Positions 17,956-25,530 of a stretch of DNA of 64,000 nt are shown piece after piece (position 1 is the stretch's first letter; each line of letters begins with the position of its first letter). The notes under the pieces are model-generated. The model was not told where the DNA came from and ran no database searches. It saw only the letters and a list, made by a program, of their open reading frames with translations. Source of the stretch: Anderseniella sp. (GTDB taxonomy: Bacteria; Pseudomonadota; Alphaproteobacteria; Rhizobiales; Aestuariivirgaceae); NCBI GenBank assembly GCA_028289645.1, contig JANQOK010000014.1, positions 1 to 64,000 of the forward strand. Reading direction: 5' to 3'. The translations under genes were made by a program, and so were the position numbers.

Positions 17956-18858
17956 TTAGCGCTCCGCTGACCAGGCAACTGCATCATGCGGGTGCAGACT
18001 CTCCAGATGTCGGACATAGACTTGAGGATTGGTGTAGCTGTCTAGCACTGCCTCGATGCGGCGAACGGCATCCTCCACGAACATCAGGTTTTGCCCATTG
18101 AGGTAGGCAAACGCCTGCTCATCGGCACGCTTGACTGCTGTCTGCACTGGTGTGGCAACAGCCTCTTCAACGCGATCGATAAGTGCAATCAGGCCCAGTT
18201 CTGGCAGACCGTCACCATCTGCGGTAACTGACACCCTTGCTTCACTGCGCTGGCTATGCGGCGTGCCCAGGGTCGCGTTTTCGCGCAGCCATCTTGCGAC
18301 CTCATTGATTGCGACCGCTGACTGGCCTTCAAAATCCTCCAGAAATCTCGTTTCCACCAGCTGCCGGGTCAGCGCGGCGGAACAGGGACAGGTCGACGAG
18401 TATTCAATCGTGACCTGAACAACCAATCTGAATTCACCGTCAACAAGCGTTGCATCCAGGCTGACAGGATAAGCCTTCCAGCCCGCCAGTCCTTCGGTAA
18501 TCAGCGCCGGACGCCGCAACAGAAGGTTGAAGTCAATCTTTGCGCGCGCACTTTCACTGCCGCAGTCCTTGTGGGTGTCGACCATTCCCTGCAGGAGTTC
18601 TCGCAGAGACATTGCGGTAAGTGTGTTTCCTCCCCCCAATCCATCATCCAGCAAGCGGTACAAGCGGGACATGTGGATGCCCTTGACGTGCGGCACTGGT
18701 AGGTCAACCTGTAAATCTGCACGCGCCGGTAAATCGCGTTGATAGCCTGGTTCCGCCACGCTGACGAACAGATCAATGCCCTGCATGCCCACCCATTCCA
18801 ACGGGCGCAGGTGTGGTGCACTTTCAGTGCGGGAAACATCGGGGAGTATTGCGTTCAC
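17956..18858 (-). CDS. folE2: GTP cyclohydrolase FolE2 (type IB)
   Basis: A 300-residue enzyme that converts GTP to dihydroneopterin triphosphate, the first step of folate synthesis, without strict need for zinc. The COG1469 signatures are visible: PDVSRTE near the N terminus, [28 protein letters not shown] and [17 protein letters not shown] with the metal-ligand cysteine. The start is GTG at 18858, seven bases after AGGAG; an upstream reading to 18954 has no comparable site. FolE2 commonly replaces zinc-dependent FolE when zinc is scarce, which fits the neighbouring COG0523 GTPase and DUF1826 gene. Confidence 0.93.
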
Positions 18859-18961
18859 CTTATATCTCCTGAGCAATCGTAGTTTTGGAAGATCCTGGGT
18901 GCTTGTACCTCGACTGCCAAGCGCTGCAGCGACCCGTCTGGCGTCACAATCCACATTGCCC

Positions 18962-19034: not shown

Positions 19035-20198
19035 TCACTCCGGAAGCACCTTTCCGGGCAGCGAATTGACCGTCATGGTGTCGGATGGCTGGTAATGAAT
19101 GACTGACCGGATCGACTCTCCCGCCTTCAACAGGTCAAACGCCGTGTTGATCTGGCCATGCCCCATATTGTGCGTGATATAGGGATCGACACTGAAATCA
19201 CCACGCATCCACTCGTCAACCATGCCAGGCAGCTCGCTGCGGCCCAGGACACCGCCAAACGCCGTGCCGCGCCACACGCGACCGGTAACCAGTTGGAACG
19301 GTCGGGTCGAGATCTCCTGTCCGGCACCCGCAACACCGATAACCGTGCATTCACCCCAACCCTTGTGGCAGGATTCCAGTGCTGCACGCATCAGATCAAC
19401 ATTGCCGACCGCCTCGAACGTGTAATCCAGACCGCCGCCAGTCATCTCAACCAGCACATCCTGTATCGGGGCATCATAGTCTTTGGGGTTGATGCACTCC
19501 GTCGCGCCAAGCGCCTTGGCCAGCAGGAATTTCGCGGGGTTGATGTCGATACCGATGATCCTCGAGGCACCGCTCATCACCGCACCCTGGATCACCGCCA
19601 TGCCGACAGCGCCAAGCCCGAAGACTGCAATGCTCGCGCCAGCCTCAACCTTTGCAGTGTTGCGCACAGCACCCATGCCCGTCGGAACGGCACAGCCCAT
19701 GACCGATGCCTTGGACAGGGGAGCGTCCTTGGTGATCTTGGCCACGGAAATCTCTGGCAGCACTGTGTACTCGCTGAACGTGCTGGTGCCCATATAGTGC
19801 AGGATCTGCTTTCCCTTGTACGAAAACCGGGAGGTCCCGTCCGGCATCAGCCCGGCACCCTGGGTTTGGCGAATGGTCTGACACAGATTGGTCTTGCCCG
19901 ACTTGATATAAGGGCAGTCGGGATCTTCAGGGACATAAAGTGGGATGACATGGTCTCCAGGTGCCACAGATGTGACACCCTTGCCTACTTCCTCCACCAC
20001 ACCACAGCCTTCGTGGCCCAGGACACATGGAAACAAACCTTCCGGATCTTCACCGGACAGGGTGAACACATCGGTATGACACAGGCTTGTCGTTACAATC
20101 CGAACAAGAACCTCGCCTTCCTTAGGACCTTCCAGGTCGATTTCCTCGATTTCCAGAGGCCGGTTTGGCTCCCAGGCAATGGCAGCACGTGTCTTCAT
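19035..20198 (-). CDS. Class III alcohol dehydrogenase / S-(hydroxymethyl)glutathione dehydrogenase, degenerate structural-zinc site
   Basis: A 387-residue zinc alcohol dehydrogenase. The catalytic zinc ligands remain (C40 in SLCHTD, H62/E63 in GHEGCG, C169 in VMGCAVPTG), as do the NAD fold ([13 protein letters not shown]) and the class III stretch [12 protein letters not shown]. The structural-zinc loop, normally with four cysteines (PEC-x2-C-x2-C...C), reads [17 protein letters not shown]: positions 92 and 98 are Asp and Ile, and only C95 and C106 are left. It lies 13 bases after the DUF1826 gene in a COG0523/FolE2 island. I infer a zinc-sparing paralogue of the usual formaldehyde-detoxifying enzyme. 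Confidence 0.87.
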
Positions 20199-20211: not shown

Positions 20212-20871
20212 TCAATTTAGTGTTGGCACGGAATCCCGAGGTGGCTCGTCCGTCATTTCGCTGACGGGATCGAGCACCAGCACAAGGCGCGTTTCGCCTG
20301 TACCCTCGATCGGGGGCGAGCGGTGCAGCAGGCCTGACTTCGGGCCTTCCGGCCACAGCGTGCCGCGGAGCAAAATCGGGGCCCCGGTTGATACGGTGAA
20401 CACACGTCGCGGCTCTGTCCCGTCGGTTGAAATGCCGTACTGCGTGCCTGTCCCGCGATAGGTGCAGACGAGGCGGGCTGAGACAGCATCAACATGGAAC
20501 TTCCTGCAGGCATTGCTGGTGACCACGTCCAGGCGCAGCCGCAGGTATTGAGTCTTCATTAAATTTGCAAACATCTCCGAAAGAGCCGCAATGTCCTCAA
20601 TCAGCAGATCGCGTTCCAAGTCTTCGGGTGTTGCCGCCATGTCGCAGAGCTGGCGTACCGTATCCAATACGGCCTGCCGGTGCAGGATCACCCGTCCTTG
20701 CGGCAGGTGATCCGGATCAAGCTGGTTCATCCATGTTTGAAACTCCGGCAGTTGCTGCCGGCGCCATATGGCAGCGGCGCACCCGGGACGGTGGATGGCG
20801 GAAAGCCCCTCAGGCGTATCGGCGACACCAACGCCGACTGCGGCGTTTTTGACGGTCTCTCGAACCAACAT
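20212..20871 (-). CDS. DUF1826 domain protein
   Basis: A 219-residue DUF1826 protein. It contains the alpha-helical [20 protein letters not shown] followed by [16 protein letters not shown] and the C-terminal LLHRSPPI box. His and Cys residues in these motifs could bind a metal. The function is unknown; members of the family occur next to COG0523 GTPases in zinc-limitation clusters. The ATG at 20871 overlaps the GTPase stop by one base (TGATG), so a longer reading into the GTPase gene is rejected. Confidence 0.83.
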
Positions 20872-22082
20872 CACGCAGCTTCCTCGGTCCGCCGCCACAG
20901 CGGGAATGGATCTGGATAATCTGGCAGATTGTCCGGTCCTGACGCGACAATCGCTGGCACCAGGCAGCTGTCCAACAGGGCCTTGATGGCCGGCCAGTCT
21001 ATGCCGGCGCCGATGAAGACCAGCTCCTGACGGCGGTCCCCCCAGGGCTCCTGCCAATACGCATCAATATAGGCACGTCCTGTTCCTTCGGTTGGCCTGC
21101 GCGCCTCCGGCACCGTCGCCCACCACTGCCCGAGCGGGGAAATCGATGACAGCGACCCGGCAAGCGAAAACTCCGCGACCCACTGCGGGCGGGTAGCGAT
21201 CCAGAAATGCCCCTTTGCGCGGATGACGCCCGGCAATTCACCATTGAGCACGTCTTTGATCTTTTCCGGGATGAAAGGCAGCCGCGCCCGATAGACAAAC
21301 GACTGCACTCCATATTCTTCCGTTTCCGGCACATGGTCGGCAAAGCCATAAAGTTCCTTGGCCCACATCGGATGTTCATGCGCCGCTTCAAAGTCAAACA
21401 TTCCGGTCTCCAGGATTGCATCGGTCGGAACGTCGGAATGGTCGGTCTCGATAATCCGCGCATCGGCGTTTAGGCTGCGGATGATCTTGCGGGCGGCATC
21501 CACGCGTTCGGGACCCGCATCGCTTATTTTGTTGAGGACCACAACATCTGCGAACTCGATCTGATCCGTCAACAAATGGACGAGTGTACGTTCATCGTCC
21601 TCGCCGAGTGCCTCTCCCCGATCATGTAGAAAGTCATGAGAGGAAAAGTCTTTCAGCAGGTTTACCGCATCGACCACCGTCACCATAGTGTCCAGCCGGG
21701 ACACATCCGACAGGCTGTCACCAACTTCATCGCGGAAATCGAAGGTCGCCGCGACTGGCAGCGGTTCCGATATCCCCGTGGATTCGATCAGCAGGTAGTC
21801 AAAACGCCCTTCGCCTGCCAAACGACGGACTTCAGCCAGAAGATCGTCGCGCAAGGTGCAGCAGATGCAACCATTCGACATCTCGACCAGGGTCTCGTCG
21901 GTGCGGCTGAGCTCGGTGTCGGCGCGAACAAGATCGGCGTCAATATTGACCTCAGACATGTCGTTGACGATAACCGCGACCCGCCGTCCCTCGCGATTGT
22001 TCAGGACGCGATTGAGCAGCGTGGTCTTTCCTGCTCCCAGAAAGCCGGATAGGACAGTGACAGGAAGGCGGGTATCGGGCAT
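20871..22082 (-). CDS. COG0523-family GTPase (putative zinc metallochaperone, ZigA/ZagA type)
   Basis: A 403-residue G3E GTPase. The Walker [10 protein letters not shown] is at residues 13-21, the metal-binding GCICC motif at 71-75, and [10 protein letters not shown] and VVLNKISD follow; a CobW C-terminal domain begins after residue about 280. The family delivers or allocates metal ions, and FolE2-linked members answer to zinc shortage. The start at 22082 has GGAG nine bases upstream. It is the first gene of the run GTPase-DUF1826-AdhC and is divergent from an Rrf2-type regulator. Confidence 0.9.
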
Positions 22083-22108
22083 AAGACGCATCTCCAAAAG
22101 GTTCGTTT

Positions 22109-22159
22109 TCACGTAACTTATACAGTTGCAAGAGCAACGCAACATTTATTGTTACGTGA
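22109..22159. promoter_or_regulatory. Inverted repeats in the GTPase/Rrf2 divergent promoter
   Basis: TCACGTAAC (22109-22117) and GTTACGTGA (22151-22159) are perfect 9-bp arms separated by 33 bases. Between them, GTTGC-AAGA-GCAAC (22125-22138) forms a smaller palindrome. The position fits binding by the Rrf2 protein or by a Zur elsewhere in the genome. The sequence is not a clear match to the alphaproteobacterial Zur box. Confidence 0.6.
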
Positions 22160-22186
22160 TATCGTCACATCGGGAGGAATCGGTTC

Positions 22187-22597
22187 ATGAAGCGAAACAG
22201 TCGCCTGTCTCTAGCACTGCATACGCTTGGTCACATGGCCACTGAGCCTGATCGGGCACGCACATCAGCCGACATTGCCGCCCATGCCGGAACCAACCCG
22301 GTTGTAGTTCGCCGTGTCCTGGGTCGGCTGCGGCAGGCGGGACTGTTGACATCGGAAAAAGGCCATGCGGGAGGCTGGCAACTTGCGCGAGCGCCACAGG
22401 AAATCACCCTGGCCGATATCTATCTCGCCCTGGACGAACGCTTGATCGCGACTGACAATGAGGACGATGCTCCCAACTGCTCTGTTGAAGACGCATTGCG
22501 CCGCCGGGTCTCTACGGTGATGCAGGATATTGAACGCAACCTGATTGAGCGGCTCGCCGCAACGACGATTGCAGAAGTTCACAAGGACGAAGACTAG
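22187..22597 (+). CDS. Rrf2-family transcriptional regulator
   Basis: A 136-residue winged-helix regulator. The N-terminal SRLSLALHTLGHMA, DIAAHAGTNPVVVRRVLGRL and KGHAGGWQLARAPQEITL are typical Rrf2 features. Only one cysteine is present (NCSVEDAL), so it lacks the three-cysteine iron-sulfur site of IscR or NsrR and may sense another signal. GGGAGG lies upstream of its ATG. It is divergent from the COG0523 GTPase and probably controls the zinc island. Confidence 0.87.
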   Translation: MKRNSRLSLALHTLGHMATEPDRARTSADIAAHAGTNPVVVRRVLGRLRQAGLLTSEKGHAGGWQLARAPQEITLADIYLALDERLIATDNEDDAPNCSVEDALRRRVSTVMQDIERNLIERLAATTIAEVHKDED

Positions 22598-24745: not shown

Positions 24746-25005
24746 AGCAAAGCCACACCGCCTCTGCAGCAAATCGGTGTTGCCCGCACAGAGGAAGACC
24801 ATCGAAGGAAATCCAGAAACTGCCCTGCTGGTTTACATATCTCAGTTGCGGCATTTTCAACCGCGCTATCAGAATACTGAAAAGGTAGGGAATGACACAC
24901 CGCGCAAGTCGCTGCTCCACAGAAGTGTCGGCTTCGCGAGCTCGGGCGGCGTTGGAAACTCCGGAAAATTACTGTTATGTCAATGCAAAAGACAGCGGGG
25001 TTTTC

Positions 25006-25530
25006 ATGAAAGAGAAATTCGAAGCCTGCGAAGGTGGTTGCGCGTGTGGTCATGTTCGCTATCAGGTGATCTCCGAACCCATGATCGTCCATTGCTGCCA
25101 TTGCAGTTGGTGCCAGCGTCAAAATGGCAGCGCGTTTGCGGTCAACGCTTTGCTCGAGGCGGACCGGGTACAACTTCTGGCGGGCGACGTCGAAAACCTT
25201 GAAATGGCCTCACCCAGCGGCAATGGCCAAACCATCGCCCGCTGTCCCCATTGCCGGGTTGCGGTCTGGAGCAACTATTACATGGGCGGTCTGAAAGATC
25301 GCATCCGCTTTGTTCGAGTCGGCTCGCTGGACAATCCAGACCTTATGCCACCAGATGTCCATATCTTTACATCCAACAAGCAGGCGTGGGTTGTTCTGCC
25401 CCCGACGGATCAGTCGACTGAGAAATTTTATGATCCTCTGGCAACCTGGTCTGCGGAGAGCCTGAAACGCCTGGACGTGTTGGAAGCAGCGGCCGGGATA
25501 GAGAAGTCCTGGAAAAATCTGTGGCGCTGA
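25006..25530 (+). CDS. GFA/CENP-V domain protein
   Basis: A 174-residue zinc-binding protein of the Gfa/CENP-V superfamily. Its cysteine clusters are CEGGCACGHVRY, HCCHCSWCQ and CPHC, the normal two-zinc set. Some relatives have been described as glutathione-dependent formaldehyde-activating enzymes, but that activity is doubtful for many. The ATG at 25006 starts right before the domain and follows a GGGG ribosome site; the frame is open upstream to 24892 without support. The 260 bases before it hold no recognised gene. Confidence 0.83.
   Translation: MKEKFEACEGGCACGHVRYQVISEPMIVHCCHCSWCQRQNGSAFAVNALLEADRVQLLAGDVENLEMASPSGNGQTIARCPHCRVAVWSNYYMGGLKDRIRFVRVGSLDNPDLMPPDVHIFTSNKQAWVVLPPTDQSTEKFYDPLATWSAESLKRLDVLEAAAGIEKSWKNLWR

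Follow-up and report, generated by a model that had tools for sequence, protein, structure and literature searches.

Among the closest described systems are the Zur-regulated zinc-sparing paralogues, exemplified by zinc-free ribosomal proteins, FolE2, HemB2 and DksA in the relevant passages of a review (PMC6103462). These passages also name alcohol dehydrogenase in general among the zinc-free paralogues, and the Zur regulon table of the review contains adhA of Corynebacterium, a Zur-repressed gene whose product is called zinc-dependent. DUF1826 occurs in Haas et al. (PMC2770081); the words 'alcohol dehydrogenase' did not turn up in a term search of that article, nor in one of the P. denitrificans Zur paper (PMC5387054), which concerns a species that may lack the gene described below. 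Among the literature matches listed, which consisted of titles and abstract openings with few subscription papers, no description of the variant was found.

The gene studied here lies in a 64 kb stretch of DNA, the whole of which is referred to as the window, and specifies a class III alcohol dehydrogenase (ADH; FrmA, AdhC, ADH5; TIGR02818) in which two of the four structural-zinc cysteines have been lost. It is therefore referred to as the two-Cys enzyme, and ordinary AdhCs as four-Cys. With the latter it has in common a full-length family match and the catalytic-zinc ligands, along with residues which we take to contact hydroxymethylglutathione; it differs from them in the lost cysteines, in a conserved C-terminal tail, in a neighbourhood made up mostly of zinc-shortage genes, and in the rarity of fghA nearby. 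Like the Zur-regulated paralogues it is an additional copy, poorer in zinc ligands, that lies next to COG0523 and Zur genes, with the zinc-dependent copy elsewhere in the genome. Unlike them it loses the structural site only; the catalytic zinc is kept, and at best one of two zincs would be saved. Corynebacterium adhA, too, is described as an alcohol dehydrogenase that belongs to a Zur regulon.

The dehydrogenase gene occupies positions 19035–20198 on the minus strand and codes for 387 amino acids. The product matches NCBIfam TIGR02818 (S-(hydroxymethyl)glutathione dehydrogenase) over its full length with 638.6 bits (cut-off 543.95). Its structural-zinc loop, residues 90–106 (19881–19931), was defined by translation and by alignment to human class III ADH (PDB 8gv3, 1m6h). 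The first-pass annotation had placed the loop at 19888–19944, a span which is shifted, cuts off Cys106 and is out of frame from its own end. It had correctly read the first and third cysteines of the loop as replaced: in the alignment with the human loop, IPQCGECKFCLNPKTNLC, these correspond to Asp92 (19923–19925) and Ile98 (19905–19907), while the second and fourth are kept as Cys95 (19914–19916) and Cys106 (19881–19883). With two of the four ligands replaced the enzyme has no four-cysteine structural zinc site, and by its sequence it is a variant of the class III ADH family from which that site has been lost. The three catalytic-zinc ligands, Cys40 (20079–20081), His62 (20013–20015) and Cys169 (19692–19694), all on the minus strand, are retained as had been noted, and are present in 84/84 aligned members of the clade described below. 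The Asp and Glu of DPEG, the Arg of IR-TQG and the Lys of CHKGWG, through which human class III ADH presumably holds the glutathione moiety, are identical in the window and human enzymes. An AlphaFold model built from a 38-row clade alignment was discarded (mean pLDDT 46; residues 1–176, the loop included, below 50).

Relatives of the enzyme were sought at several depths. An AdhC was found at E ≤ 1e-80 in 39 of 60 genomes, the window's own included; copies at 91–100% identity occurred in the own genome, G008 and G058, and the other matches listed reached at most 63%. Among 289 genomes of the class, again including the own genome and with a limit of 1e-172, one other genome had a copy at 92%, and two had copies at 68–70%, which are four-Cys. 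Genome contigs were also scanned with six peptide patterns, and the best 80 of 186 relatives (L039–L118) were kept; these have 81–94% identity to the window enzyme. The loop itself (EDPDCPYI) served as one of the six patterns and the lower-ranking relatives were dropped, so this sample of the clade is biased towards near relatives. Nine plasmid records have copies at 80–90% identity, the next plasmid records reaching 71%. Four of the nine, together with L039–L118, make up the 84 two-Cys loci used for the neighbourhood counts. Outside the clade AdhCs are at most 71% identical among the matches listed.

Residues were compared in an alignment of 84 clade members (the window and 83 loci) with 76 four-Cys AdhCs, the latter picked by identity and not by loop; L097, L145, L155 and L246 were excluded as they yielded no extractable full ORF, and the loop of L097, read separately, is of the clade's type. 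Asp92, Cys95 and Ile98 are present in 84/84 clade members and Cys106 in 83/84, L113 having Ser at this position, although near-copies among the loci (e.g. L042 and L045) mean that 84/84 is not a count of independent events. All four positions are cysteine in 76/76 comparison AdhCs, so the loop is neither chance nor sequencing error; contamination or a frameshift as its cause was ruled out by its recurrence across many assemblies. In a tree that left out the columns of the loop and comprised 27 two-Cys rows, 32 four-Cys rows and one human row, the two-Cys rows form one clade (27/27 rows, support 100/100), and on this tree the two-Cys sequences are of one origin. The hosts belong to the Hyphomicrobiales, Roseobacteraceae, Paracoccaceae, Stappiaceae, Acetobacteraceae, Halomonadaceae and others. 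They are intermixed on the tree, which suggests horizontal transfer of the two-Cys gene; the labels of some metagenome loci (e.g. Anaerolineae for L045, Phycisphaeraceae for L046 and L081) may result from wrong binning, and no conclusion is drawn from them.

The first-pass annotation had connected the loss with a zinc-limitation island, and the loss does recur beside zinc genes. At least one zinc-shortage gene was detected in the flanks of 64/84 two-Cys loci versus 0/37 four-Cys loci, using as references the zinc proteins encoded in the window and at the two-Cys loci, a set which dissimilar zinc genes in the controls could escape; we do not think it likely that this choice accounts for the zero. 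The flanks covered 10 kb for the clade's plasmid loci and up to 8 kb for the others, and ZnuC-like ATPases (29/84 two-Cys, 8/37 four-Cys) were omitted from the count as unspecific. Restricting the comparison to loci with at least 17 kb of DNA gave 37/46 versus 0/27, and dereplication at 95% protein identity gave 33/47 versus 0/29. Two or more zinc-shortage genes were present at 54 of the 84 loci; individually, COG0523 was found at 49, DUF1826 at 50, HisI at 28, ThrRS at 25, Zur-like genes at 23, FolE at 12, CysRS at 10 and FolE2 at 2. The formaldehyde-pathway neighbour fghA shows the reverse distribution, being close to 15/37 four-Cys genes versus 3/84 two-Cys genes; the four-Cys copies of Azospirillum and Phaeobacter adjoin it. 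In a Gluconobacter albidus plasmid FolE, HisI, ZigA, the two-Cys dehydrogenase and carbonate dehydratase follow one another, with DUF1826 and a Fur-family regulator adjoining on the opposite strand; the plasmid loci of Sagittula stellata and of Paracoccus ferrooxidans include genes for GTP-binding proteins, for DUF1826 and for metal ABC transporters. The loop itself, on which the zinc-sparing idea would have foundered had it been common in AdhCs outside zinc clusters, occurs in none of the 76 comparison enzymes.

Promoters were scanned with a Zur matrix made from five P. denitrificans boxes of other genes, published in the section of PMC5387054 used here, and both the 10- and the 12-bit thresholds are reported from one run. 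Boxes of at least 12 bits occur within 150 bp upstream of 26/84 two-Cys genes versus 0/36 four-Cys genes; at 10 bits the same scan gives 31 two-Cys genes versus one four-Cys gene. The 26 stronger boxes lie 39–79 bp before the gene start, copies with a clear box including those of Tritonibacter aquimaris (L077) and Leisingera (L083), and Paracoccus versutus being another host with such a box. Zinc neighbours were not found at 20 two-Cys loci, and eight of these have a box of that strength (L077, L082, L091, L104, L106, L108, L110 and L113); 12 of the 84 have neither zinc-shortage genes nor a 12-bit box, several of these being on short contigs. COG0523 promoters were scanned at 25 loci, L040 being left out. 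A box of at least 12 bits stands in seven of them, including those of L039 (20.2 bits) and L044 (15.8 bits), both close relatives; the other 18, to which the close relatives L043, L049 and L059 belong, have no box at 10 bits.

In the window the operon begins with a ZigA-type COG0523 GTPase (20871–22145, minus strand; PF02492, PF07683), its likely start being near 22082; against the ZigA model NF038288 it scores 574.9 bits, under the cut-off of 600. The end of this gene is overlapped by the ORF of a DUF1826 protein (20212–21057, minus strand; PF08856, 197.5 bits), the true start of which is probably near 20880. Downstream of the dehydrogenase is a FolE2 GTP cyclohydrolase (17956–18954, minus strand; PF02649, and NF010200 above cut-off). 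About 5 kb from the dehydrogenase, the ORF at 24892–25530 looks by eye like a zinc protein of the GFA family (glutathione-dependent formaldehyde-activating type). The operon promoter contains a weak Zur-box-like site, GTGACGATATCACGT (22154–22168, minus strand). It scores 11.2 bits, which ranks it second among the sites of the 64 kb window, and a score as high came up in 56 of 2000 first-order Markov resamplings of the promoter.

Divergent from the operon is an Rrf2-family regulator (22187–22597, plus strand; PF02082, and TIGR00738 above cut-off), and the gap between it and the COG0523 gene holds a candidate tandem operator (22113–22155) of two GYAAC-N7-GTTRC sites, at 22113–22129 and 22139–22155, 26 bp apart. 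A related Rrf2-family gene adjoins the island in the window and in L051, L065, L066, L072 and L073. Two such sites at this spacing are present in 5/6 of these Rrf2 promoters, L066 having a single site and L065 an imperfect last half-site. L051 is among the 12 loci with neither zinc genes nor a box, yet it has both the Rrf2 gene and the candidate operator. Across all the DNA scanned, 4.5 million bases if both strands and overlapping loci are counted, single sites matched 44 times, and the tandem was found in the window, L051 (at 7668), L056 (5833), L065 (7240), L072 (1266) and L073 (5121); L169, which also has it, is a repeat of the window. The pattern had been derived by eye from promoters of the Rrf2 genes, so L056 is the one independent match; there the tandem lies upstream of an ORF resembling, by eye, a dipeptide/nickel-type binding protein, and a transporter of this type is zinc-regulated in P. 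denitrificans according to the part of PMC5387054 consulted. Besides the two sites at 22113–22155 the pattern has no match in the 64 kb of the window (0.24 expected; two in 1/100 shuffles). The window operon is probably driven by the divergent Rrf2-family regulator acting at the tandem operator, a regulator of Rrf2 type being more likely here than Zur. We infer that at these islands an Rrf2 protein, which may sense zinc, stands in for Zur, and the 43-bp tandem is possibly the site of a zinc-gene-linked Rrf2 regulator substituting for Zur.

Zur itself appears to be present in the same genome. Contig C7 carries a Fur-family gene (PF01475), taken as Zur, together with genes that look by eye like znuA, znuC and znuB, and a Zur-type box, GTTACTTTATAACGT, of 13.5 bits lies between znuA and znuC. 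The ORF following znuA (G000:C7:21356-22144, L204) resembles DUF1826 by eye. The genome also encodes a PF01227-type FolE in addition to FolE2, so the FolE2-for-FolE parallel, which had been drawn at the outset, stands. The question whether a four-cysteine AdhC exists elsewhere in the genome is answered by G000:C14:214682-215809 (L125), a second AdhC with all four cysteines, 63% identical to the window enzyme and with fghA nearby. A further AdhC, at 58–67%, was found in 39/40 other sequenced hosts of the two-Cys gene, the exception being Roseibium G352 (L058), in which no further AdhC was found. From the 39 genomes 40 such AdhCs were taken, and the 39 loops that could be read (L246 is cut) are all four-Cys. 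Among metagenome and single-cell genomes, which may be incomplete, 15/23 have a second AdhC of any loop type and in 8/23 none was found.

Taking loop, partner and regulation together, we consider it likely that the window AdhC is a zinc-sparing paralogue of AdhC/FrmA. The two-Cys AdhC is probably a spare copy for the same chemistry with half the zinc, a reading for which the invariance of the loop in the clade, the 64/84 versus 0/37 count of zinc genes and the four-Cys partner all argue. The operons and Zur-type boxes suggest that zinc shortage would turn it on along with genes for zinc thrift such as COG0523, DUF1826 and FolE2; zinc-replete cells would be served by the four-Cys AdhC encoded elsewhere in the genome, and in the window the switch would probably be thrown by the Rrf2-family regulator. 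With its catalytic zinc and its residues for handling hydroxymethylglutathione kept, the enzyme is predicted to act on this substrate. With two of the four structural ligands lost, each subunit most likely folds with a single zinc instead of two, the emptied loop presumably being stabilised by other contacts, among which a Cys95–Cys106 disulfide could form and the conserved C-terminal tail may also be mentioned. Against zinc sparing are the weakness of the window's own Zur-like site, the 12 loci having neither zinc genes nor a box, the 18/25 COG0523 promoters that lack a box at 10 bits, and the absence of the words 'alcohol dehydrogenase' from the P. denitrificans Zur paper. Against a spare copy are the eight metagenome or single-cell genomes without a second AdhC, three of which have the two-Cys gene by fghA with no other AdhC found (L063:3324-5712 and L075:6790-9161, labelled Rhodospirillaceae, and L079:7962-10167, labelled Aestuariivita), with the reservation that these genomes may be incomplete. 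There the enzyme looks like a housekeeping formaldehyde enzyme rather than a spare, and these lineages may have no other formaldehyde dehydrogenase. A more far-reaching version, which we put forward tentatively as the less probable course of events, has a one-zinc AdhC spreading horizontally, taking the place of the two-zinc enzyme when zinc is short and, in some marine lineages (L063, L075 and L079), replacing it outright next to fghA, the island of the window's group having moved from Zur to an Rrf2 protein that reads zinc status through the 43-bp tandem.

Near-invariant Cys95 and Cys106 also count against zinc sparing, as a wholly abandoned site would not need them, and a residual site or a disulfide is possible. 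The loop might still bind metal through Asp92, Cys95, Cys106 and a fourth donor, perhaps with weaker affinity or with another metal, and the enzyme would then be differently metallated and not a one-zinc form. In some archaeal alcohol dehydrogenases a carboxylate replaces one structural cysteine, and Asp92 is as invariant in the clade as Cys95; Ile98, however, removes a second ligand in every member, and L113 has lost the cysteine at 106 as well, so that we regard a metal-binding loop as unlikely. Thirty diagnostic positions set the two-Cys apart from the four-Cys AdhCs, some of them (A170, P172) adjoining the catalytic ligand Cys169, and the tail after the SIRSV motif is of 19–21 residues in the 34/84 two-Cys members in which it was measurable versus 2 residues in the 31/76 four-Cys AdhCs measured. 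These features would suit a paralogue with a new substrate that travels with zinc genes by happenstance. The TIGR02818 score above cut-off and the unchanged DPEG, IR-TQG and CHKGWG positions, whose roles we presume, speak against it, as does the position beside fghA in L063, L075 and L079, since a housekeeping formaldehyde role there, if real, argues that the two-Cys enzyme is active on the usual substrate; a change of substrate accordingly seems to us quite improbable. Least credible is that the cysteines were given up as a guard against oxidative or nitrosative ejection of zinc and not to save it. Two more cysteines are indeed replaced in the clade, Cys165 (76/76 four-Cys) by Ser in 82/84 members and Cys138 (65/76 four-Cys) by Thr in 84/84, but Cys284 is gained in 82/84, and neighbours and promoter boxes indicate zinc shortage, not redox stress.

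If zinc sparing is the true explanation, a widespread detoxification enzyme joins the zinc-thrift swaps, and does so as a partial form of thrift in which the structural zinc is surrendered and the catalytic zinc retained. A long-standing question about proteins, what keeps an ADH folded and stable in the absence of its structural zinc, becomes open to test, since the clade's natural solutions can be compared with the four-Cys enzyme that the same cell encodes. There is also a consequence for annotation, the two-Cys genes being labelled as ordinary class III ADH in the plasmid records examined.

Two further neighbours recur at the two-Cys loci. The product of L119:6680-7159, annotated as phosphoribosyl-AMP cyclohydrolase and counted apart from HisI, has relatives in 19/84 loci. 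No HisI model matched it. It matches NF047901, NCBI's model for metal-independent carbonic anhydrases (E 3e-53, 180 bits, short of the cut-off of 350), and is likely to be another zinc-free replacement that has been misnamed. An AraC/GlxA-type regulator with a DJ-1/PfpI domain (L119:7865-8887) has a relative in 28/84 loci; in L119, L121 and L124 the regulator and the two-Cys dehydrogenase genes are divergently oriented.
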